IMG/VR virus record: IMGVR_UViG_3300035181_000004
Location: 1-23,967 of that record
Length of the DNA stretch: 23,967 nt
Direction: 5' to 3' (one strand)
Origin: a virus
The translations under genes were made by a program, and so were the position numbers. Each line of letters opens with the position of its first letter. Positions within the stretch are counted from its first letter, which is position 1. The notes beneath the pieces are model-generated. The model was given only the letters and a program-made list of their open reading frames with translations, was not told the origin of the DNA and searched no databases. Of this stretch, positions 9,395 through 23,967 are shown piece after piece.

Positions 9395-9812
9395 TTTGTA
9401 CCTGTACTCTCTTAGCAAGGACTTCGTATTCGATAACCGCCCCAAATGGGTCAGAGATTGAGGTCACACCCTGAACTTCAAATACAGTAGCGGCTTCGCC
9501 ACGCTCGTACTCTGACCATAGAAGGACGCCATTAGATCCACGAATGTTTGTGATTCTCTGGCGACGATTCAACTTCTCGCCTGTCATAATTTTGATAAAC
9601 TCATACTCAGCATAAATATCGTTTACCTTTTTACCAGATGCAGCATCGGATACTGCATCAGTCTGAATAGAGCGAGCATAGCACGTAATGCTATGATCTT
9701 TTGCCCAAGAGTCTGCAACTGCATATGAGGTTGGGTCTTGAACCAGAGTCTTTTTGTAGATATCTGCTGTGTGGTTATAGGTAGCGCCAACTAGGCATCC
9801 TGAGAAAATCAT
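9387..9812 (-). CDS. Head closure (stopper) protein, 141 aa
   Basis: ATG at 9812 overlaps the adaptor stop in an ATGA junction. The protein has the look of small beta-barrel head closure proteins (HK97 gp7 / SPP1 gp16 type): an early strand YNHTADIYKKT followed later by ITCYARSIQTDAVSDAASGKKVNDIYAEYEFI, then a strand run to VEYEVLAKRVQVQNG. It would bind under the adaptor ring and keep packaged DNA in the head. Length is typical. The role comes from size, strand pattern and gene order. Confidence 0.7.
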   Translation of the reverse strand: MIFSGCLVGATYNHTADIYKKTLVQDPTSYAVADSWAKDHSITCYARSIQTDAVSDAASGKKVNDIYAEYEFIKIMTGEKLNRRQRITNIRGSNGVLLWSEYERGEAATVFEVQGVTSISDPFGAVIEYEVLAKRVQVQNG

Positions 9813-10738
9813 ATAATAAAGAAACCAAGGTCGCGGTAACGCTTTAGAAGGTTGTCCACAATCAGGTTTCCGGTTCCTCGGAATGCCTCCTTTTCGTATG
9901 TAAACTTCCAGTCACGCATTTCAACCTTGTTGATATAGCGGGCACGCCATAGTGCATCACGGCACATGTAGTCGTTGACAAGCATTGACGTTGCATCTAC
10001 GATATCTGTTGGTACGTAGTTAAATCCAAAAATTCCATCTATAACATAGCGGAATCCTTGCTTAAATGTTCCCCCGCCACCGATGGTCACCCTAAGATTC
10101 TCTGATTCAGAAAGGTCGGTGAAGTTTGGATCGATGATTCTGATGGCCTGTCCAGTCTCGGTTACCTCTACCGCCCACCCGAAGGCTGATGTATTCACAC
10201 CATCAATTACCAGAGCACCATTCTCATAAAGTTTGGATACTGAGATAATTGGCTCCCTTAGTACGAGCGTGTCAGTATTTTGGCCATAGGCCGTAACCTG
10301 CTTGGCAATAGGGTTGAAGTATTTGTTTGTATAGGCATTAATCGTATAACGAGCAGTTCGCTCTGCTGAGATTACATCCTCACGGTCACGATAGTTTGCG
10401 TCTCCGGGCGTGAAAGACCAATTATAGCGCGCGGCTAATTCCTCTGCGCTGATATAGGGGGTAATAATTTCAACATAGTCAACCTTGACCGCTGACTCAC
10501 CGCCCACAGTTGCAGCCCAATTAACTGTAACTTGGTCGTCTACGGTTGTTTCGGATAGAGGAATATAGGCTTTCCAACTCTGGGTTACGCCTGTAGGAGT
10601 AGGGACAACAAGGGTCACAGAGAGCGGAGAATCTGCCGACCCTGGGCGTGTTAGAACAGCGGTCGGCGTGCCGGTTGCTGAGGCGTTGTAAATATCAAAG
10701 TATACGTAATGACTCGTATTCTTGTAGATTTCTGTCAT
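9809..10738 (-). CDS. Head-tail adaptor with N-terminal beta domain, 309 aa
   Basis: ATG at 10738 overlaps the fibre stop (ATGA). Residues about 1-95 form a beta-sandwich-like unit (NTSHYVYFDIYNASATGTPTAV, later VDYVEIITPYI). After that comes the typical start of a head-tail connector, ISAEELAARYNWSFTPGDANYRDREDVISAERTARYTINAYTNKYF. In such proteins the helix with a Tyr/Glu-rich start packs against the portal. The C-terminal part has VDATSMLVNDYMCRDALWRARYIN and ends KRYRDLGFFII. The usual adaptor is about 100-200 residues, so the N-terminal domain is an extension that could bind neighbouring capsid or fibre proteins. The adaptor call is firm in position and good in sequence. Confidence 0.8.
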   Translation of the reverse strand: MTEIYKNTSHYVYFDIYNASATGTPTAVLTRPGSADSPLSVTLVVPTPTGVTQSWKAYIPLSETTVDDQVTVNWAATVGGESAVKVDYVEIITPYISAEELAARYNWSFTPGDANYRDREDVISAERTARYTINAYTNKYFNPIAKQVTAYGQNTDTLVLREPIISVSKLYENGALVIDGVNTSAFGWAVEVTETGQAIRIIDPNFTDLSESENLRVTIGGGGTFKQGFRYVIDGIFGFNYVPTDIVDATSMLVNDYMCRDALWRARYINKVEMRDWKFTYEKEAFRGTGNLIVDNLLKRYRDLGFFII

Positions 10739-13700
10739 ATTACTCGTGTGCTCCTACTTCCAAAAATTACCCCTGGGGCGCTGGAATCCTGTCCAAACGA
10801 CGTTCCGTCTGTAACTCTCTCTCCAAGTATTTTATCAGATGTAGCCCGGAATGCAAAGGACTTTTCAGATTGTCCAATGTCAACCTGTAGGGTGCTGGAT
10901 ACCTCTGATACTCCGACTGATAGGGCGTCGGAAGCCATCTTTGAAATCTGTCCGAATACCCCAACTCCGGAAGTCTCGGATACTGAAATTGTTACCGTGT
11001 CGGAGGCGCTAATCTGTGTAACATTCAGCACAGATGAGGAATCTGCAACAGATAGGGTTAGAGAGTCTGCTGCGGCCTGGGCCACGGTGACCTGGCGACC
11101 CTCAGTTACAGTCAACGACAGCGCATCATTAGTGCTAATGTTAACAGTTACGCTTGATGCTTCATTGACGCTTAGGCTTGGGTTATCTGTTGTTGCAACG
11201 AAAATACCTATTGGAGAGGATACATCTGTTACGGTTAGGGATAGGGTATCGCTTACTCCCGGCCCGGAGGTTAGGCTGCTTGAATCCGCCACTGAAACAG
11301 TAAGGGAGTCGCTGGCAACCAGCGGAACGGTAACCGCGCTATTGTCAGATACAGCGATACTTAGGCTATCTGAACGAGATAGCGTAGAGGTTGACGACGA
11401 TGTATCGGAAACGGTAAGGCTAAGGCTATCAGAAGCAGCAACCGTAATTCCGGTTGTGCTTGTTCCTTCGGTAACCGTTAGGGTCAGGCCATCAATTGCA
11501 GACTTATTTACAAATCCAGTATCAACGGAAGATACATCGGCTACAGTCAGCGATAGGGCATCTGTAGTTGATATTGGGACGGTAACCGCTGAAACATCAG
11601 ATACAGATACACCTAGAGCATCTGTCGTAGAGATTGTGGACTTGCTAGAACTGCTATCTGCTACAGAGATAGATAGACCGTCCGTCGTTGCCACATTTGA
11701 TGTACTTGAAGATACATCAGCCACGGATAGTGTCAGGCTATCAGAAGCGACAATTAGAACTGTCACCGCTGATACATCGGCAACAGATAGTGTAAGCGAA
11801 TCTACGCGACTCAGAGTGCTTGTAGATGTAGATACATCGGATACGGATAGCGTCAGCGCATCCGTCGTATTAACCTGAACTGTAACAATTGAGGTTCCCT
11901 CGGCGACTGTTAGGCTTAGGCTATCGGTTGTAGACGGTGTTCCTGTTCCAGCACTTACGTTACTCGTTTCAGCGACAGTCAGGCTCAGAGCATCTGTTGT
12001 AGAAATTGGCACAGAGACAGCAGAGGAATCTGCGACAGAGATACTTAGTGCATCTGTAGAAGCAAACTGTGCGGTAACGGCAGATACATCAGATATGGAA
12101 ATGCTTAGTGCATCTGCTGTAGATACTTGCACCGTAACTACACTAGCACCCTCAGTTGCAGTAATTGATAGGGCATCAGTTGTGTTGACAAGGGTCACGA
12201 TTGTTATGACTCCCGCGCCCTCCGTTACCGTCAGGCTTAAACCATCCGACGTATTAACGCTTGATGTAGATGAGGATGAATCAGATACGGTGAGGCTCAG
12301 GGCATCGGTCGTATTGACGCTAGATGTAGATGTAGATACATCGCTCACAGATAGTGTCAACGAATCTACAGTAGTAATCGGTACTGTAATAGCAGATACA
12401 TCGGCTACGGATAGTGTAATCGCATCTACGGTATTAATATTTGACGTAGATGAGGATACATCTGATACTGAGATTGATAGGGAGTCGGTTGTTACTATAT
12501 TTACTACAACAGATGATGTATCAGCAACAGTTAGAGATATAGCGTCTGTTGCGTTAACTGATATTGGGGCAACTCCGCTACCAAATTTATTGACTGGGTA
12601 TGCAATTGCTGCATAAGCACCCGATCCGGTCCAGGTCCATGATGGCGACCCTGTTGTCTGCGAGGTAATGGACATAAATGTAGAAATGGTAGATGATACA
12701 GAACGAATAGTGGTCTGTGACCCTCCCGCTGTCTGAGTTGCCTTACCAACAATACCACTTAGTAGGAATGCTCCTGAGACACCAGAAATAGTAGATGATG
12801 TACCAGCGGTGTTTATATCAGACCCGACCGTGCCAAATGGATTTACTGTATCTGCTCCAATAAGAGATACACCTACAACATCCATCTGAGTATTACCAGT
12901 CATTGTTGAAACAATGTTTGCAGTACCCACGGTAGGATTTATCATATACCATAGTTCAATACGTCGGTCTGTTCCGCTCGCGCCAGACGAGGCATTTCCA
13001 AGGAATGCCATTGTCGTACCACCATATGTGACACCGGTAATAGGAACGCCTGAGACTGGAATACCAACTGCTACAACCAGGAGGGTTTCGCCTGCGGCAA
13101 CAGTATGAGATACCGTTACTGATGTTGCGCCAGGAGTTGATCCTGATGATGTATTACCAACTGTTACCGGAATGATGGATTCTACCACTGAAATCGTTAG
13201 GGAGTCAGTAGTTGAAATGGGGACAGTAACCGCAGATACATCTGTAACGCTCAGAGTCAGGGCGTCTGTGGTAGTGATAGCCACGGCGACGGCTGAGGTT
13301 TCCGCCACTGAAATAGATAGGCTATCTGTGGTAGCCAGGGCATTTGAAATGGCTAGGCTGCTCACGTCGCTTACAGCGACGGTGAGGCCATCTGTGCTAG
13401 AGAATTGATTTTGTACTGCTGATGTGCCCTCGGTTACGGTTAGTGACAGCGCATCAGTTGTAGAAATCTGTACTGTAACCAGGCTCGCACCCTCGGTAAC
13501 CGTGAAACTGAGGGCATCTATTGTCGATAGCGGATTGTTGATTGCTAGGGAACTTACGTCTGAAACAGATAGGGTTAATCCGTCTGTGGTCGTAAACTGA
13601 TTGGCAACAGCGGAGGTACCCTCAGTTACAGTAAGAGTTAGGGAATCTGTGGTATTAACATTTGATGTAGACGATGAGACATCTGACACAGATAGTGTCA

Positions 13701-16431
13701 ATGCATCTGTGCGGGACAGCGTGCTCTGTGATGTGCTTGCATCTGCTACAGATAGTGTCAATCCATCAGTAGTTGAGAATTGGGCGGTGACGGCAGAAGA
13801 ATCTGCTACGGACACACTTAGGGCATCAGTAGTATTGACGTTAGATGTCGAGGAACTTACATCTGCTACGGTAAGGCTGAGGGAGTCGGTAGTAGAAACC
13901 TGAACTGTTACATTAGAAGTTTCTGATAATGTAAGAGTTATACTATCAGATGCACTAATAGGAGTGCTACTGACCTTAGCAAATACCAGCATTGCTGCCG
14001 ACATCTGATCTGCCGTGCCCGTGTGAGTCTGAGTAGTCTCAGCCGTAGATGATGCAGCAAGATCCTTTAGTTCTGCAACGGCAAGTCCTCCACGTCCAGA
14101 TGACGCAAAGGCAAGAATCTCAGTAAATCCATTTGTATAGGTTGGTGTTCCCGTGTTTGATTGACTTGAATCAATAGAGAAGAATGCTAGGGCTAGACCA
14201 ATGTTAGAGATTGTTCCCGTAGTTCCGGTAGATACCGCTAGGGTTGTAGTTTCATTTGTTGGATTTGTTGCTGTTCCTAGTGCCGTCCATGTTCCAGTAT
14301 TAGAGTCACTATATTCAGCAATCCATAATTCATCACCTGCTGCATCTGTTCCTGTATCGTGAGTAAATGTAAATCCTGTCTCTCCGCCCGCCGCGATCTT
14401 CCACCCGATCCATGTTGATACAGATGTGGATGTTTGATTTAGAATAACGTTCCAGCCAGTACCCGGAGCAACAACATTCGGAGCACTCTTGTCCATTGCT
14501 AGTGCGGCGACGATAATATTGCCAGCAGTAGCAGCGGCACCAAGAGTAGCAGTAATGCTTGTGAATGGAGTGCTATTAGTTCCACTGGCAGTCTGTACAC
14601 GAGTAAAGGTGCCTGCACCAGTTAGGGATGACGTTTCTGATACGGATAGTGTTAGTGCGTCAGTCCTCGATAGCGTAGATGTGGAAGAACTTGAATCTGC
14701 GACGGTAAGGCTGAGGGAGTCAGTTGTTAATACTTGAACTGTTACTGCTGATGAATCTGATACAGATAGAGCCAGGGAGTCTGTTCCAGTAATAGGTGTT
14801 CCGCCGATTGGAACACCATTCTTTGTTACGTTAGTTAGGGTATACGAACCGGTAGCATTGTTCTGCTGGAATCCCAGAGTTGGACCGCCAGTAATAGCAA
14901 TGTTTGTAAATGTCAGTCCAGAAACAACACATGATGTAGTATCAGCCTGGATACGAATATCTGCGATGACCGCTGTGGGTGTTCCAGTTACAGTAAAGTT
15001 CTTAATATCTACATTGGTAACGCTATAAGCACCAGTCTGACCATTGTAGATCATAATTGCGCCGTGATTTAAGGTAGTATTAAGTGCCGCATTGGTGATG
15101 GAGGTTCCATCAAACGTAACAAGATTTACCGCGCGTGAGGTATATGAAGGTTCTGAGGCTACATATACTCCCGCCGCCTGGGTGTTACTAATCACAGAAC
15201 TAGTTACAGTAATGTTTGTTCCACCAACGACAGTAATGCCTCGGGCGGCTGATGTATCAACGTGGCTACCAGAAATTGTAATAGTATCACATGATGTTGC
15301 ATCAGTCTGGTATGACACAACGGAAATACCATCATCGCCCGTATTATATGTTGTACAGTTTGTTACTGTTCCGTGATTGGCACCCTCAGTCATGTGGATA
15401 CCATCTGCGCGCGTGTTATTTACGGTTACATTGGTAAGGGAGAAGTTATCTCCCATGATATAGATACCAGCAGCAGCGGAACCTTCAATAGTACAGCCAC
15501 TAAGGCTGACTCCGGTTTTAGTACCAATACGCACCTTCATCTGCTCATACGCAGACCACCTTGTTGTGGTTGATTGCATCTGGAATTTCAAACTTCCAGT
15601 CACGGAAATGTTGTTTGCGTTGATATAGAATTCGCTAGTCGCCTCTGCTGTAGCAAGGATGGTTCCGGTTCCCGTAATGGTTCCGCCGTCATTGCTTACA
15701 GTCAATACTGCATTGTGAGCATATGTTGCATTACAGGTTAGGGTGCTTCCAGCATCTAGAGCATTAAGGGCAGCCTGTAGTGCTACTTGGTCATTGGTAA
15801 CACCATCTCCGACAGCACCGAATTGCTCGGGCGTCAAGGCAGTCGATGGTGCTACCCACTGAGTAGGAGTAACTGTTCCGGCGAAAAGACCCATACGGTC
15901 AATACGGAATTTATCACCTGAAACGCTGGATGCTCCATCGGCCTGCCAAACGTATGGTGCCATGAATGCAGCACCAGCGGGTGCTGTGAATGTATATGCA
16001 AAATCATTCCATGAAGTAGTAGAAGATACAGCATATCCATTATTAACGTTTCCAAGGCTAGTTCCGCCACTATCCCAGAAAGCAATTTGGATAAGAATAG
16101 CGGAAGATGTCAGCCAGCCACCAGCGAGGTGCTTTTGTGACCACAGGAAGGTATATGTACCAGGAGAACATGCTGTTGCAGCAGTTACTAGGGATGGCCT
16201 TACCGATGCGTCTCCACCGCCCGTTACCGTGACTTCTAGTGCTGCTGTACCCTGCTGGAAATCAGATGTAATACGAGCAATGCTACTAACACGAGTATCT
16301 GCTACCCATTGACCAATATTGTTTTCAATAGTGGCTGTATTGTTGCCCATCAAATTGACAATTGGTGGGCCTGCTTTTACTGGCGTTAAGCGCCTTGGCT
16401 GTAATGGCTGCGACCTTCCGACTCTAGCCAT
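10735..16431 (-). CDS. Giant beta-helix and repeat fibre protein, 1898 aa
   Basis: ATG at 16431 has GGTGATGATCT just upstream. Residues 1-25 are basic and Pro-rich. About 26-195 resemble a carbohydrate-binding jelly roll with many Trp. About 200-545 form a right-handed beta-helix of the pectate lyase 3 type, opening with EQFGAVGDGVTNDQVALQAAL and continuing in rungs rich in Asn, Thr and Gly. About 546-606 hold three copies of a 20-residue repeat, 607-822 an inserted beta domain, 823-1090 thirteen more repeats, 1090-1290 a second inserted domain with GVTYGG, and 1290-1850 about 27 more repeats, followed by a short tail. Repeats read like TTDSLSLTVADVSS and have no Cys. The protein should form a long, thin trimeric or monomeric fibre with a host- or glycan-binding head. 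It sits inside the head module, so it may be attached to the capsid or the neck. Confidence 0.9.
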   Translation of the reverse strand: MARVGRSQPLQPRRLTPVKAGPPIVNLMGNNTATIENNIGQWVADTRVSSIARITSDFQQGTAALEVTVTGGGDASVRPSLVTAATACSPGTYTFLWSQKHLAGGWLTSSAILIQIAFWDSGGTSLGNVNNGYAVSSTTSWNDFAYTFTAPAGAAFMAPYVWQADGASSVSGDKFRIDRMGLFAGTVTPTQWVAPSTALTPEQFGAVGDGVTNDQVALQAALNALDAGSTLTCNATYAHNAVLTVSNDGGTITGTGTILATAEATSEFYINANNISVTGSLKFQMQSTTTRWSAYEQMKVRIGTKTGVSLSGCTIEGSAAAGIYIMGDNFSLTNVTVNNTRADGIHMTEGANHGTVTNCTTYNTGDDGISVVSYQTDATSCDTITISGSHVDTSAARGITVVGGTNITVTSSVISNTQAAGVYVASEPSYTSRAVNLVTFDGTSITNAALNTTLNHGAIMIYNGQTGAYSVTNVDIKNFTVTGTPTAVIADIRIQADTTSCVVSGLTFTNIAITGGPTLGFQQNNATGSYTLTNVTKNGVPIGGTPITGTDSLALSVSDSSAVTVQVLTTDSLSLTVADSSSSTSTLSRTDALTLSVSETSSLTGAGTFTRVQTASGTNSTPFTSITATLGAAATAGNIIVAALAMDKSAPNVVAPGTGWNVILNQTSTSVSTWIGWKIAAGGETGFTFTHDTGTDAAGDELWIAEYSDSNTGTWTALGTATNPTNETTTLAVSTGTTGTISNIGLALAFFSIDSSQSNTGTPTYTNGFTEILAFASSGRGGLAVAELKDLAASSTAETTQTHTGTADQMSAAMLVFAKVSSTPISASDSITLTLSETSNVTVQVSTTDSLSLTVADVSSSTSNVNTTDALSVSVADSSAVTAQFSTTDGLTLSVADASTSQSTLSRTDALTLSVSDVSSSTSNVNTTDSLTLTVTEGTSAVANQFTTTDGLTLSVSDVSSLAINNPLSTIDALSFTVTEGASLVTVQISTTDALSLTVTEGTSAVQNQFSSTDGLTVAVSDVSSLAISNALATTDSLSISVAETSAVAVAITTTDALTLSVTDVSAVTVPISTTDSLTISVVESIIPVTVGNTSSGSTPGATSVTVSHTVAAGETLLVVAVGIPVSGVPITGVTYGGTTMAFLGNASSGASGTDRRIELWYMINPTVGTANIVSTMTGNTQMDVVGVSLIGADTVNPFGTVGSDINTAGTSSTISGVSGAFLLSGIVGKATQTAGGSQTTIRSVSSTISTFMSITSQTTGSPSWTWTGSGAYAAIAYPVNKFGSGVAPISVNATDAISLTVADTSSVVVNIVTTDSLSISVSDVSSSTSNINTVDAITLSVADVSAITVPITTVDSLTLSVSDVSTSTSSVNTTDALSLTVSDSSSSTSSVNTSDGLSLTVTEGAGVITIVTLVNTTDALSITATEGASVVTVQVSTADALSISISDVSAVTAQFASTDALSISVADSSAVSVPISTTDALSLTVAETSNVSAGTGTPSTTDSLSLTVAEGTSIVTVQVNTTDALTLSVSDVSTSTSTLSRVDSLTLSVADVSAVTVLIVASDSLTLSVADVSSSTSNVATTDGLSISVADSSSSKSTISTTDALGVSVSDVSAVTVPISTTDALSLTVADVSSVDTGFVNKSAIDGLTLTVTEGTSTTGITVAASDSLSLTVSDTSSSTSTLSRSDSLSIAVSDNSAVTVPLVASDSLTVSVADSSSLTSGPGVSDTLSLTVTDVSSPIGIFVATTDNPSLSVNEASSVTVNISTNDALSLTVTEGRQVTVAQAAADSLTLSVADSSSVLNVTQISASDTVTISVSETSGVGVFGQISKMASDALSVGVSEVSSTLQVDIGQSEKSFAFRATSDKILGERVTDGTSFGQDSSAPGVIFGSRSTRVI
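10880..12560 (-). repeat. Repeat block 3: about 27 copies of a 60-bp / 20-aa unit
   Basis: Within the fibre gene, units with consensus T-T-D-[SAG]-L-[ST]-[LIV]-[ST]-V-[AST]-[DE] recur about every 20 residues (60 bp), with some 21-23 residue variants (for example TVTEGTS types). At the DNA level the copies are degenerate, mostly conserved at the first and second codon positions. The block runs to the C-terminus. Confidence 0.9.
13160..13965 (-). repeat. Repeat block 2: about 13 copies of the 20-aa unit
   Basis: This is the same repeat family as the other two blocks, bounded by the inserted domains. Two recurring subtypes are visible: TVADVSSSTSNVN types and TVTEGTSAV types. They alternate irregularly, which points to duplication of multi-unit pieces. 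Confidence 0.9.
14613..14796 (-). repeat. Repeat block 1: three copies of the 20-aa unit after the beta-helix
   Basis: Copies begin GTDSLALSVSD, TTDSLSLTVAD and RTDALTLSVSE. They lie directly after the last beta-helix rungs and before the first inserted domain. Confidence 0.85.
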
Positions 16432-16437
16432 AGATCA

Positions 16438-17163
16438 TCACCAACTATTCGCGCGCTGAACGGCGGCTGAATTTCCTACAATTTTGGCTGGCCAAAAACG
16501 ACCAACAGGCGGAGCCTGCTCAATAAATGCTACACCGGAGATTACATAGTCGTCTGCAGTAGCCGCAATCCATCCACCAGTAATTGTTGTTCCAGCGGGG
16601 CTGTTAACTGCGGTAAGGCGAGCAAAACCTCTACCAGTATTACCAAGGTCGGTGCTACTAATCAGTGTCCACGCGGGAGTAGTCTGCGGAGTGGCGGTCA
16701 TAGTCTGTAATCCAGAATGGATTGCTTCATACGCCATATGGGCAACACCTGTTGTACAGCCAGTAAGGGTCAGGGCAGGGTTAGCAGCAGACGTGCTTGT
16801 TCCAGTATTACCAGTTCCGATAAGGCCAACTGCCTGACCAGAGGTTACCGTCATTGTTGAAACAGATAGTTGCTTGTCTGTAGCAGCAGTTGTTGTCATT
16901 GCTACATTCTGTGTGCCTGTGGCTATGTTGTCAAGGAAGTAAATATATACTGCACCAGGCTCAGTTGCCTCAGAGTCAAAGCGGATACGCTGCATGGCCG
17001 CTCCACCATACGTTACACCAGAAACCTCGTCAGTTGCAGTACCAGCCTGTGCGATTAACACAACAGCACCACGAGCCGATGCTGATGCAACATGGCTCGT
17101 GGTCTGGGTTCCGGTGGCGACATACGCGGTGGCAGTTGTTGTAACGTCGTGGGCGATAGCCAC
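16438..17163 (-). CDS. Beta-sandwich structural protein related to a fibre insert domain, 241 aa
   Basis: GTG at 17163 follows the previous stop at 17170 by six bases; no better start is seen. The protein is Ala/Thr/Gly-rich and beta-sheet in character, with no Cys pair or signal peptide. Residues near 48-56 read VSGVTYGGAAM, and about 20 residues later VYIYFLDNIATGTQNV. The giant fibre has the matching pair ITGVTYGGTTM and IELWYMINPTVGTANI in its second inserted domain. The stand-alone protein and the fibre therefore share a domain, probably a virion surface module. The C-terminus (PPVGRFWPAKIVGNSA) is basic and Pro-rich, somewhat like the N-terminus of the fibre that follows seven bases later. 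The exact role is unknown; a decoration or fibre-base protein is the most likely reading. Confidence 0.75.
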   Translation of the reverse strand: MAIAHDVTTTATAYVATGTQTTSHVASASARGAVVLIAQAGTATDEVSGVTYGGAAMQRIRFDSEATEPGAVYIYFLDNIATGTQNVAMTTTAATDKQLSVSTMTVTSGQAVGLIGTGNTGTSTSAANPALTLTGCTTGVAHMAYEAIHSGLQTMTATPQTTPAWTLISSTDLGNTGRGFARLTAVNSPAGTTITGGWIAATADDYVISGVAFIEQAPPVGRFWPAKIVGNSAAVQRANSW

Positions 17164-17169
17164 TCAGGA

Positions 17170-17619
17170 TCACTCTTCCCAGATAACGCCTACGGTCGCA
17201 TTTACACCGGCAGGCGCGGTCAAACGCATACGCCAGAAACCTGAAACTGGAACATAGAGTTCTCGTCCAAGGGGTGCTACGTAGTGGAAGCCTGATGTTG
17301 GGCTAATACGCTTAATAATGACATCTGATGCAGTACCCGCGCCCTCGGCGGTAGTCGAGTGCTTAGTTGTATTTCCAGATGCCGGGGCAGCAGTATTAGT
17401 ATACTTACCGGGTGTTAGAGTTGTTGCTGTGGTAACAGCGGCAGAGAATCGGCCAACTTCAACCTTGACCGGTACGGCTGATGCGCTGACACCATCGAAA
17501 TCAACCCACCATTCCACAATACGGATATCCGCAGTAGATGGGGTTGCTATTTCTAGTACAGACTTTGCGGTAGCGGCGACTAGGGCAATAGCATCAACAG
17601 ATGCAATGTAAAGGCTCAT
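17170..17619 (-). CDS. Small beta-rich structural protein, 149 aa
   Basis: ATG at 17619 has no proper ribosome binding site. It overlaps, as ATGA, the stop of an 11-codon leader frame (17651-17616) that does have one, so translation is probably coupled. The product is rich in Ala, Thr, Val and Ser, has IRIVEWWVDFDGVSASAVPVKVEV near residues 32-55, and ends with GFWRMRLTAPAGVNATVGVIWEE. This looks like a jelly-roll type virion protein of the kind found near capsid or fibre genes in actinophages. It lies between two other beta-rich structural genes. Function is unknown; capsid decoration or fibre-base are possible. Confidence 0.8.
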   Translation of the reverse strand: MSLYIASVDAIALVAATAKSVLEIATPSTADIRIVEWWVDFDGVSASAVPVKVEVGRFSAAVTTATTLTPGKYTNTAAPASGNTTKHSTTAEGAGTASDVIIKRISPTSGFHYVAPLGRELYVPVSGFWRMRLTAPAGVNATVGVIWEE

Positions 17620-17731: not shown

Positions 17732-18106
17732 TCAGGTTGTTGTTAGTGTTACTGTAAAGACCCAAGTTTGCGCTGAGGTCTTTGTACCAAGTGACTCAAC
17801 CTTGCGGCTCAACATTGTTCCAGCAGCAGAGGCGTTGAATACGCCCCACTCCTGCCAAGCATAGTTTGCATCGGTTGTTGCAAATGTTGCTCGGTAGGTC
17901 ACAACGTTAGAGGCTACCTGTGGGTAGGTAGCATCCATGACCTTGCGCAGTTTGTTAGATGCTGCCTGTAGGTCAGTTTGTGCCGCTGAGAATGCTGTTA
18001 CTGAGTCACCAACACCAATGTAAGTATTGGTGTTGTTAAATGGTGTTGCTGCTGCTGCGTGGGCTGATGCGACCATGAAGTCACGCCCTGCGGTAGTCAA
18101 TGCCAT
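17732..18106 (-). CDS. Conserved small virion protein, 124 aa
   Basis: ATG at 18106 has AAGGAGG seven bases upstream, the strongest ribosome binding site in this block, and overlaps the TAA of the 49-codon gene by one base. The protein has a typical modular pattern: TYIGVGDSVTAFSAAQTDLQAASNK near residues 28-52, then YRATFATTDANYAWQEWGVFNASAAGTMLSRK, then WVFTVTLTTT at the end. I know this pattern from small phage structural proteins that form a compact beta domain, sometimes annotated as tail-fibre or decoration proteins. The position behind capsid and in front of the fibre block, and the strong site plus hairpin, suggest an abundant protein, perhaps a capsid decoration or fibre-anchoring subunit. 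That role is inferred. Confidence 0.8.
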   Translation of the reverse strand: MALTTAGRDFMVASAHAAAATPFNNTNTYIGVGDSVTAFSAAQTDLQAASNKLRKVMDATYPQVASNVVTYRATFATTDANYAWQEWGVFNASAAGTMLSRKVESLGTKTSAQTWVFTVTLTTT

Positions 18107-18255
18107 TATTCTTCCTCCTTGATAATTTCTGTGATTTCTCCATTTTCGATGATGATAGTCTCGACCAGTCTCCCAGACTCAGCGTCAAACTTTTCAAGTC
18201 TGCCACTTATTTCTACCATATCAAAATCTATGCCCTCGAAAGGTCCGTCAGTCAC
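18106..18255 (-). CDS. Small coupled gene, 49 aa
   Basis: This short frame starts with GTG at 18255, inside the TGA of the upstream gene (GTGA overlap), and ends TAA at 18106, overlapping the next ATG by one base. The product starts MTDGPFEGIDFDMVEISGRL and ends with EITEIIKEEE. It is acidic, with a predicted strand-rich centre. Both junctions are the tight overlaps seen elsewhere in this cluster, and the frame carries the ribosome binding site (AAGGAGG) of the next gene near its end. No family was recognised. An internal ATG at 18219 would give a 37-residue version. Confidence 0.65.
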   Translation of the reverse strand: MTDGPFEGIDFDMVEISGRLEKFDAESGRLVETIIIENGEITEIIKEEE

Positions 18256-18656
18256 GAGTAAAAGTCCTCTAGTTCCTTTTGCATGGCCATACGGAAGCCT
18301 TCTTCGTTCTCTAGAATGGAGTTTGCGACATCCTCGGGCACGGCCACGAATGGGTGCTCTCGTGTGAATGTTACTCCGAAAGTATCATATGCTCCGTTTT
18401 CACGGACCATTCTTAGGAGAATTAGTGGACCCTCAGCCTTAGGTGGCTCGGGTGTGAACTGGCCTTTGTCGTGAACCTCTGGCTCTGGCTTTTCAGCGTC
18501 CAGGCGGTCCTGCCATTCTTTGTACATGGTGAAGTCAATACCCTCGTCCTCAATCTTCTGGACGATGTTCAGTTTACCGCGCACGCCTTCTAGGTCAACG
18601 CCGAAGTATTCTGCCGTTTCCTTCAATTTTTTTACATCTAGATCTGTTAATGACAT
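18252..18656 (-). CDS. Small head protein with SAP/HeH-like N-terminus, 134 aa
   Basis: ATG at 18656 was chosen because AGGAGG lies six bases upstream. An in-frame ATG at 18677 is too close to the -10 box at 18682 to be transcribed usefully. Residues 1-45 form a helical unit (LTDLDVKKLKETAEYFGVDLEGVRGK) like SAP / HeH / Rho-N domains, which bind nucleic acid or act as assembly anchors. A Pro/Glu-rich linker follows near 55-75, and the rest includes EHPFVAVPEDVANSILENEEGFRMA, a motif I associate with small phage head proteins next to capsid genes. It follows the capsid gene and its hairpin. Its role, perhaps head completion or decoration, is inferred from position. Confidence 0.7.
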   Translation of the reverse strand: MSLTDLDVKKLKETAEYFGVDLEGVRGKLNIVQKIEDEGIDFTMYKEWQDRLDAEKPEPEVHDKGQFTPEPPKAEGPLILLRMVRENGAYDTFGVTFTREHPFVAVPEDVANSILENEEGFRMAMQKELEDFYS

Positions 18657-18681
18657 TCTCTGCCTCCTATGGCTCATCTAA

Positions 18682-18757: not shown

Positions 18758-19741
18758 TCAGGCTACCTTTACGTCCTTTAGAATAACAAGGGCGTCTGTG
18801 TTTTCGTACTGGACACCTACGCGAACGTAAGCGGTGTACTCGACAGCATCCTTCTTGTTCTTGTACTCAGACATAACCTGAACTTCGCGCTTGATACCCC
18901 AGATACGGTTCTGTGGGAAGGTCAACTCTACGTAACCGTGGTTACCGGTTGCACCTGAGTAGGTGCCGGTAAGGGTCTCGGAGAATAGTGGAACTTCCTT
19001 GATCGGAATACCGAATCCGAATGGAGTTACAGCACCGGCGCTACCAGAAAGTGTACCCTGGCCACGAAGAATACCAGATACTACTTCTTCTGGGTTACCC
19101 GGTAGGGCTAGAAGAGAGTTCAGGTAATCCTGTGAGACACCAGATCCAGTGTAGAAGCGAAGATCGCCACGACGCTGTAGGTACTTACGAGGCATTGCCT
19201 TGATCATTACGTTAAGTGCTGACTTGGTGATTGTGGCACCAGAGTTAGTCTTGACGTAACCACCTGCTAGACCCAACTTACGGAATCCATCGAATGACTT
19301 CAATAGGGGGTCGGATGAGAGGGTTGTGTCACCGTTGATTGCTAGATCCTCAATGTCGTTACCGAACTGAGTAGCCATCAAACGAGCGATGTGGTCCTCT
19401 AGGTCACCAAACTCGATGTTGTCCTCTAGGGACTCACGAGAAAGTTCCCAATCTAGACGGAGTTTCTTGGTTGTGACGGAAACCTTGGTGAAGGTTGCGT
19501 CAGCGTTGACACCATCGTCCACGGCCTCGGTTGCGAGACGTGCAAGACGCTGGCCTACGCCAACCTTGTCAATGTCTAGAGTGTTAGCGCGCATACGGAC
19601 CTGACGGCCCTCGGTTGCTAGTGTGGTTGCGTCCCACATGTAGTCGATGAAGCGGTTGGACTGTTCTGCGTTTAGCAGACCACCTGAACCGGCAGCGACC
19701 TCAGTAGTACGGATTACTTTTTCAAATAGTTCATTTGACAC
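18758..19741 (-). CDS. Major capsid protein, HK97 fold, 327 aa
   Basis: GTG at 19741 follows the shared leader element AGGTAGGTGAAA by good spacing. The protein has the capsid features: a short N-terminal arm, the strand pair around GVGQRLARLATEAVDDGVNADATFTKVSVTTKKLRLDWELS (E-loop and P-domain spine), the helix FGNDIEDLAINGD typical of HK97-fold capsids, and the C-terminal A-domain strand KDAVEYTAYVRVGVQYENTDALVIL. Length fits HK97-type capsids without an N-terminal delta domain; here the scaffold is a separate protein. It lies directly after protease/scaffold, has a dedicated leader, and ends before a strong hairpin, consistent with very high expression. I cannot say which subfamily it belongs to. 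Confidence 0.93.
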   Translation of the reverse strand: MSNELFEKVIRTTEVAAGSGGLLNAEQSNRFIDYMWDATTLATEGRQVRMRANTLDIDKVGVGQRLARLATEAVDDGVNADATFTKVSVTTKKLRLDWELSRESLEDNIEFGDLEDHIARLMATQFGNDIEDLAINGDTTLSSDPLLKSFDGFRKLGLAGGYVKTNSGATITKSALNVMIKAMPRKYLQRRGDLRFYTGSGVSQDYLNSLLALPGNPEEVVSGILRGQGTLSGSAGAVTPFGFGIPIKEVPLFSETLTGTYSGATGNHGYVELTFPQNRIWGIKREVQVMSEYKNKKDAVEYTAYVRVGVQYENTDALVILKDVKVA

Positions 19742-23033: not shown

Positions 23034-23967
23034 TTATGTCGTCTTGGGAACCAATTCCCACTTGTAAGAGTACAAAGTTGGCGTAATTGCGTCCGTAATG
23101 CTCAGAGAATCGACGCTAGTATGCGACCCGACAATAAGTCCTCGACTTGCAGCATAGTGCTCTGTCACTTGGGCGGCAGAGAGAACTGATGAGTACGCAG
23201 CCACTCCCATTACGTCCATAACCGGCGAAGTACCAACTCCGGTATAGTGTTGTGCTAGGCTAAACTTGGTTGTCACACCAGCAGCAACCGTCGCCACAAG
23301 ATGTAGGTTTTGGGCAAGGTTGATAGTTCCACCCGATGTGAATGTTGCACCATTAAGATAAACGTTTGTGAATCCTACCCAGGACAGGGTTGTACCGGTA
23401 ATGGTAATCGCATACTCTGTTCCGCCCGCGTTGTCTCGGACACAGAGGATTTCTCCTGTTCCCGAGCGTACTCGACATACTAACTCAACAGTGTTATAGG
23501 TGGCAGACTCAAATTCGAAACGCTGTGTTCCGGTAATCTTCATGTTCGGTCTGTCCAGCCCCTCATATACTCTATCATTTTCCTGATTTGAAACCCAGTT
23601 ATATGTTGTGGTTAGGCACATCTTGTCAGAGTTAAGAGCCTTAATGTCAACATTGCTGAATATTTTGAAGTTGATGTAATCTAAGAATCCTACGTGGTCA
23701 TCGTCTGTGGTAAGGGTAACCTTAACTATAAATGGGCCGAGCACCTGTGCTCCGCCAAGTGTTCCTGTCTGTGGAAAGTTAGGGATAATGTCACTCTTGT
23801 TCGCGGTAGTGAAACCAGATCCGTTATAGGAAACTGCAACCGTAAGGAATGTTGATTCTGCTCCGCCCCAATCCATGTGGTGATCAACATATGTTCCAGA
23901 GTAAGGCGCGGTGAAGGTATACTGCCACGTACCAATCGCCTTAGGGTTAAGGTTGGTATCTAGTAGG
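23034..23967 (-). CDS. LamG-like (concanavalin-type) structural protein, 5' part missing (runs off right edge)
   Basis: The frame is open from the window edge to TAA at 23034, giving at least 310 residues with the N-terminus outside. An early stretch AIGTWQYTFTAPYSGTYVDHHMDWGGAES looks like the strand region of a PA14- or carbohydrate-binding-like domain. The second half has the laminin-G / concanavalin pattern: FEFESATYNTVELVCRVRSGTGEILCVRDN, VYLNGATF, and the closing MDVMGVAAYSSVLSAAQVTEHYAASRG. Such domains bind sugars on host or environmental surfaces. The tail end contains VDSLSITDAI, similar to the TDSLSLTVAD unit of the giant fibre. Its place before portal is unusual. It may be a virion surface protein; no sign of an enzyme is seen. 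Confidence 0.85.
   Translation of the reverse strand, partial: LLDTNLNPKAIGTWQYTFTAPYSGTYVDHHMDWGGAESTFLTVAVSYNGSGFTTANKSDIIPNFPQTGTLGGAQVLGPFIVKVTLTTDDDHVGFLDYINFKIFSNVDIKALNSDKMCLTTTYNWVSNQENDRVYEGLDRPNMKITGTQRFEFESATYNTVELVCRVRSGTGEILCVRDNAGGTEYAITITGTTLSWVGFTNVYLNGATFTSGGTINLAQNLHLVATVAAGVTTKFSLAQHYTGVGTSPVMDVMGVAAYSSVLSAAQVTEHYAASRGLIVGSHTSVDSLSITDAITPTLYSYKWELVPKTT

Follow-up and report, generated by a model that had tools for sequence, protein, structure and literature searches.

An exchangeable fibre cassette between the capsid and head–tail adaptor genes of a siphophage related to the Stanwilliamsviridae: a candidate neck appendage

Introduction

The neck passage structure (NPS) of lactococcal phages (ORF51 of TP901-1 and its counterparts in the 936 group) is an optional, elongated neck fibre with carbohydrate-binding ends, whose presence varies between close relatives and whose gene in the 936 phages lies between the head and tail genes (PMC4759559; PMC10747895). 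In that group, nps immediately precedes the gene for the major tail protein, and immunogold labelling showed the nps product at the neck (PMC4759559). The neck fibre of Anabaena phage A-1(L) consists of several proteins (gp80–82), in which anchor, stalk and tip are distinct polypeptides and a carbohydrate-binding module lies at the distal end; its tip did not bind the host (PMC10966104). The whiskers of phage Sf14, composed of gp30 and gp31 only, are attached via an adaptor at the neck, and the gp31 gene lies in the head cluster. The neck can also be used by other elements, as in the Streptomyces phage MindFlayer, where it is an accessible docking surface to which the satellite MiniFlayer binds (PMC10690885).

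Here we analyse a 23,967-base virus record (the window), related to MindFlayer, in which a giant repeat-built protein had been noticed within the head gene module. The protein belongs to a gene slot of which we found no description in the open-access literature, and it is best read as the main component of a fibre that would be functionally similar to the lactococcal NPS but built from other parts.

Results

Gene order and family of the window

The head–tail gene module of the window lies on the minus strand and begins with a lectin-like gene, a small gene and the genes for the portal, the protease and the major capsid protein, followed by g141. The slot genes then come in the order KFD, g124, g149, g241 and giant fibre (Table 1), and are succeeded by the genes for the head–tail adaptor, stopper, completion protein, terminator, major tail protein, chaperone, tape measure and distal tail protein, so that the window stops short of the virus's own tail tip. 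The capsid protein matches those of Streptomyces phages such as LukeCage and TunaTartare over its full length (∼64% identity), which fixed the identity of the neighbouring genes, and its sequence marks the virus as a siphophage akin to the Streptomyces Stanwilliamsviridae. Synteny with annotated phages bore out the preliminary description in placing the giant gene between capsid and head–tail adaptor genes. All slot genes are on one strand and overlap or almost touch the head and adaptor genes, the stop of the giant fibre gene and the start of the adaptor gene sharing 4 bases. Promoter and terminator scans of the region gave a signal close to chance level.

Table 1. Features of the fibre slot and its surroundings in the window.
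Feature	Position	Strand	Basis or remark
Lectin-like protein gene, upstream of portal	23034–23966	−	LamG 1.1e-4, under curated cut-off
Major capsid protein	18758–19741	−	64% identical to Streptomyces phages
g141, conserved gene after capsid gene; upstream slot border	18252–18677	−	
KFD, 49-aa acidic protein	18106–18255	−	Start overlaps g141 stop; stop overlaps g124 start
g124, protein of fibre-adaptor (tail-collar) fold	17732–18106	−	AF2 pLDDT 95; structural matches; homologues
g149, small companion	17170–17619	−	Homologue in L019 slot (40%)
g241, presumed beta-sandwich companion	16438–17163	−	phrog_553 minor tail 6e-5
Giant repeat-stalk fibre, 1898 aa	10735–16431	−	ORF; repeats
N-terminal carbohydrate-binding-like domain, aa 24–192 (assignment unproven)	15856–16362	−	No significant Pfam/PDB match
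Right-handed beta-helix, GH87 alpha-1,3-glucanase-like, aa 199–545	14797–15837	−	Pfam Beta_helix 1.9e-12; PDB
Repeat block 1, 3 copies	14608–14787	−	
Presumed beta-sandwich spacer domain I	13966–14607	−	Weak blastp match, L107 slot fibre, E 0.002
Repeat block 2, 13 copies	13153–13953	−	
Presumed beta-sandwich spacer domain II, g241-like	12562–13152	−	27% over 164 aa, E 0.005
Repeat block 3, 27 copies	10876–12552	−	
Head–tail adaptor, extra N-terminal domain of ∼95 aa; downstream slot border	9809–10738	−	

The repeat stalk of the giant fibre

About 43 copies of a 20-residue unit in three blocks, making up some 47% of the protein, had been noted in the preliminary description, and a profile scan returned exactly 43 non-overlapping copies of 20 residues, 3 at residues 549–608, 13 at 827–1093 and 27 at 1294–1852, as against a mean of 0.04 copies and a maximum of 1 in shuffled versions of the protein. 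Taken strictly, the copies amount to 860 residues (45%), and the block spans to 886 (47%). The repeat consensus is TTDALSLSVSDVSSVTVNIS; the Asp at position 3 is invariant in 43 of 43 copies, which are otherwise 41% identical to one another on average. No DNA tandem repeat was found in the array, and the observed codon identity among copies matched what codon usage alone would give (0.34 in both cases), indicating an old array maintained as protein sequence; a recent origin by slippage was ruled out on the same two grounds.

An AF2 model of six repeats was all beta (pLDDT 76 in the best of five models, 53–66 in the others), with beta-solenoid-like contacts that give only a hint of the stalk fold, and a search of the PDB with this model yielded no match better than E 0.08. 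For comparison, T4 fibritin (wac) is a coiled-coil trimer with a foldon. When the whole giant protein was compared with annotated phages, the sole match was to the beta-helix of Arthrobacter phage Peas; the repeat stretch of the related fibre L112, used as a query, gave no matches, some of which may be masked by low-complexity filtering. Long antisense ORFs face the repeat blocks on the plus strand (10709–11878, 12095–12616 and 13601–13903) and were dismissed as probably a by-product of Ser/Thr codon composition. A Trp-rich C-terminal motif (like GxWxxGxLxVYxxGxW) is common to the fibres of L104, L105, L107, L108 and L111, and the window fibre is without it.

A GH87-like head domain

The beta-helix noticed near the start of the giant protein was borne out by Pfam (Table 1), and its PDB matches were GH87 alpha-1,3-glucanases (7c7d, E 1.3e-10; 5zru, 2.7e-4). 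Catalysis by the GH87 enzyme Agl-KA requires Asp1067, Asp1090 and Asp1091 (PMC6814745), with which Asp343, Asp366 and Asp367 of the window protein align at identical spacing, making it plausible that this head is active as a hydrolase. The window protein thus shares with Agl-KA and Agl-FH1 the beta-helix and the three catalytic Asp residues at the same spacing, a likeness read from sequence, but differs from them in that the helix is fused to a phage fibre stalk. In the GH87 enzymes an N-terminal galactose-binding-like domain is packed on the helix; the window protein has a domain of fitting size in front of the helix, the putative carbohydrate-binding-like domain described earlier, which is without a significant match in Pfam or the PDB, the best being to a CBM-bearing xylanase chain (E 0.22).

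g124 and the small gene preceding it

The AF2 model of g124 was confident (Table 1), and its best structural matches were a tail chain of HFTV1 (Z 12.1), the arm segment of phi812 (9.9), A511 gp105 (9.7) and the fibre–tail adaptor of GP4 (8.7), with 115 of 124 residues aligned to the HFTV1 chain and 114 to the GP4 adaptor. Matches in BFVD were tail-collar fibre proteins. On these predicted similarities g124 is very likely a fibre adaptor. Weaker structural matches were obtained with the neck chain K of Sf14 (Z 5.2), which corresponds to the whisker protein gp31, and with a connector chain of Bas63 (5.1). These whisker proteins are small like g124 and similar in fold, but a search for sequence similarity between g124 and Sf14-type gp31 was negative and the Z scores are low enough to reflect a mere shared arrangement. 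Sequence searches of the PDB with g124 gave nothing significant. The parts of GP4, phi812 and A511 that share the predicted g124 fold sit on tails or baseplates, whereas g124 is encoded at the neck slot; the fold alone would fit neck and tail alike and does not discriminate between them.

In several other phages, REQ1 aside, g124 homologues mostly adjoin tail or other fibre genes, and in SP-15, LIS04 and Achromobacter phages they lie within tail or baseplate modules. In the myophages Bacillus phage SP-15 and Listeria phage LIS04 the homologue follows the baseplate genes and precedes fibre genes with an RCC1 annotation and giant ones annotated as pectate lyase (10.7 to 13.2 kb), an arrangement of similar cassette logic in a tail module.

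Directly upstream of g124 lies KFD, a gene absent from the preliminary description, whose product begins MTDGPFEGIDFDMVEISGRLEKFDAESGRL. Counterparts with a KFDG/KYDG-like motif occupy the same position in several slot-filled relatives and in the unrelated phages L120 and L133, and a small acidic gene of this kind precedes g124 across several phage groups. In L124 and L133, which have another gene order with the fibre cluster just before terminase and portal, a short protein encoded near upstream of g124 bears the same type of 20-residue repeat.

The slot is recurrently filled among relatives

Among relatives found by their capsid protein, the distance between g141 and the adaptor gene was below 150 bases in 54 loci and extra genes were present in the others; further slot loci were added by a scan with g124. 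On a capsid tree of 83 rows, 54 slots were empty and 29 filled, 19 of these with a g124 cassette as in the window (class B) and 10 with a cassette of BppU/LtfC-like and collagen/lectin proteins (class A), counts that are not frequencies since many class B rows entered via g124. At least 10 (about 10) changes of state were required on this tree, which was built by a quick method and has 25 of 70 branches weak, as against a minimum of 2. Close pairs with differing slots include L103 (filled) and L027 (empty), and L029 (empty) and L033 (class A). The distribution suggests that cassettes have repeatedly been gained, lost and swapped among related viruses. The search for repeat homologues beside capsid genes that had been proposed earlier was thereby answered, as the same cassette stands in exactly the same place in 19 related phages, and in all 8 of the g124 loci whose slot closes on the adaptor, the ORF immediately preceding the adaptor gene contains the repeat. 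The class A protein was matched by 26 Streptomyces records, including the cultured phages TunaTartare, Faust, Comrade and BillNye; in LukeCage and MindFlayer the slot is empty. HNH_3 endonuclease genes were seen inside the fibre slots of L037 (8608–9126) and L110 (10464–10967) and may help to explain slot mobility.

Different heads are carried on the same type of stalk. That of L019 bears a domain of the PhoD phosphatase family (Pfam 1.3e-14; phrog hydrolase 2.8e-71), that of L110 a GDPD glycerophosphodiesterase domain (1.2e-14) and that of L037 LamG-like domains, the last recognized by inspection, and several other class B fibres have spacer domains and repeats only. Class A cassettes contain L-type lectin, LamG, CBM5/12-like or pectin-lyase-like domains and collagen repeats, and their first domain resembles the N-terminal domain of the TP901-1 neck passage protein (BppU_N 0.002, borderline; hhalign 64%, E 6e-5). 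Head swaps on a constant stalk would fit exchangeable modules directed at surface polymers. Earlier it had been proposed that the fibre binds host surface glycans; glycan-active domains are indeed carried, but binding is too weak a description in view of the catalytic triad and of the PhoD and GDPD hydrolase domains of relatives.

In the contigs of L019 and L037 a complete tail-tip module, including a fibre of roughly 2000 residues or more with FN3-like sequence, follows the tape measure gene besides the filled slot, and the slot fibre is thus an additional one. Tail-tip modules are also present in the slot-empty relatives G004 and G005.

Discussion

On balance we consider it probable, if barely so, that the slot encodes an accessory, exchangeable depolymerase or lectin fibre, most likely mounted at the neck and anchored by g124, which acts on a host surface polymer. 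In this model the cassette of KFD, g124, small companions and giant fibre, which has been inserted after g141 and ahead of the head–tail adaptor gene, would supply the virion with a long beta-rich stalk, presumably oligomeric in some form, made of 20-residue repeats and spacer sandwich domains and bearing an N-terminal glycan-active head, in the window the GH87-like beta-helix. g124 would be the attachment adaptor, the site of attachment would be the neck, at or near the head–tail adaptor, and the fibre would hydrolyse or grip the polymer on the host surface ahead of engagement by the tail tip.

The neck is favoured as the site because two different fibre cassettes are found in one and the same interval beside the adaptor gene, because tail-tip fibres are present separately, because the start of the class A protein resembles the neck-binding N-terminus of the TP901-1 NPS, and because the neck of the close relative MindFlayer is an accessible docking surface. 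Of the capsid or neck attachment proposed in the preliminary description, the neck has become the better reading, given the recurrence of the slot and the additional tail-tip module, while nothing specific for the capsid surface was found. Gene position taken alone is weak evidence either way for position in the virion, as TP901-1 nps lies among the lysis genes, far from the neck genes, yet its product is at the neck; the neck fibre genes of A-1(L) are likewise far from the neck genes.

The main rival, which we judge somewhat unlikely, is that the gene is out of place and encodes a fibre of the tail side or tip, which would dock through g124 on the tail-tip complex and serve there as a second fibre for receptor binding or depolymerization. 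The fold of g124 is of the baseplate type and its stronger structural matches are baseplate or tail parts, its homologues in unrelated phages stand beside tail fibre or baseplate genes, and a 396-residue tail-tip protein of relatives has an N-terminus that aligns weakly with g124 in the right register, without significance (hhalign E 0.009, probability 4%). Homologues in tail modules and a tail-attachment terminus had from the outset been named as arguing against a head or neck fibre, and this is in part what g124 presents. A displaced tail fibre would, however, have to be reconciled with a cassette that is always at the neck slot in 19 relatives and in none of the tail-tip modules examined, with an unrelated second fibre cassette in the same slot, and with a full tail-tip module present separately. 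A fibre coating the capsid shell, which might for instance hold the particle on surface glycans, would suit a position only two to five genes downstream of the capsid gene, and capsid fibre genes can neighbour capsid genes (phi29 gp8.5); we nevertheless rank it lower, as improbable, since g124 matches fibre-to-tail adaptors, not capsid decoration proteins, and a chain of 1898 residues would be extreme for a component present hundreds of times. Free forms of some phage depolymerases are known, and the enzyme domains would function in solution, so that a protein released from infected cells, opening biofilm or cell wall for the progeny and not a stable part of the virion, can be envisaged; its coupling to structural genes, the presence of g124 with its fibre-adaptor fold and the great length of the stalk make this the least credible reading, and we regard it as very improbable.

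The neck-mounted fibre that we prefer would resemble the lactococcal NPS in being optional among close relatives, with the empty and filled states and some 10 changes seen here. The NPS is placed at the head–tail junction of the virion, whereas the window fibre is placed by the position of its gene. Furthermore, the TP901-1 NPS begins with BppU_N (8.7e-29), for which Pfam searches gave no match in the giant fibre, g124, g149 or g241; the window uses g124, KFD, a stalk of 20-residue beta repeats and a hydrolase-like head instead, and the class A cassette is nearer to the NPS than is the window's own. The multi-protein composition is shared with the neck fibre of A-1(L), which differs in folds and gene position and is not reported to carry a hydrolase domain (PMC10966104). 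Unlike the slot cassette, the Sf14 whiskers have only their two components.

The slot of MindFlayer is empty, and slot genes are therefore not needed for satellite docking. The extra N-terminal domain of the head–tail adaptor is present with or without a slot fibre and is, speculatively, a candidate both for the slot-fibre mount and for satellite docking. A broader proposal, which is tentative and rather unlikely, would make the head–tail junction of Stanwilliamsviridae-like phages a general plug-in site, where a universal adaptor N-terminal domain takes either of two unrelated cassettes, enzyme and lectin heads (GH87-like, PhoD, GDPD, L-type lectin, LamG, CBM5/12) change without regard to receptor binding at the tail tip, and the same neck surface may be the grip of MiniFlayer in MindFlayer.

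If the neck mount is true, polymer clearing or reversible binding by a freely swapped neck fibre would be separate from irreversible receptor binding at the tail tip. Cultured Streptomyces phages in which the slot is filled (TunaTartare, Comrade, BillNye) can be compared directly with others in which it is empty (LukeCage, MindFlayer), and the slot could bear on how the satellite phage grips the neck in the Stanwilliamsviridae-like family. Labels such as 'minor tail' and 'hypothetical' may conceal neck appendages, and the fibre heads are candidate enzymes for degrading glucans or polymers resembling teichoic acid.

The lectin-like gene upstream of the portal gene is possibly a second appendage locus outside the slot. 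The LamG companion of the preliminary description corresponds to this gene and is real but weak (Table 1), and it does not adjoin the fibre. A full copy of the gene is present in L002 (4405–6708), and in TunaTartare the corresponding position is taken by gp21, whose LamG domain is clear (5e-14).
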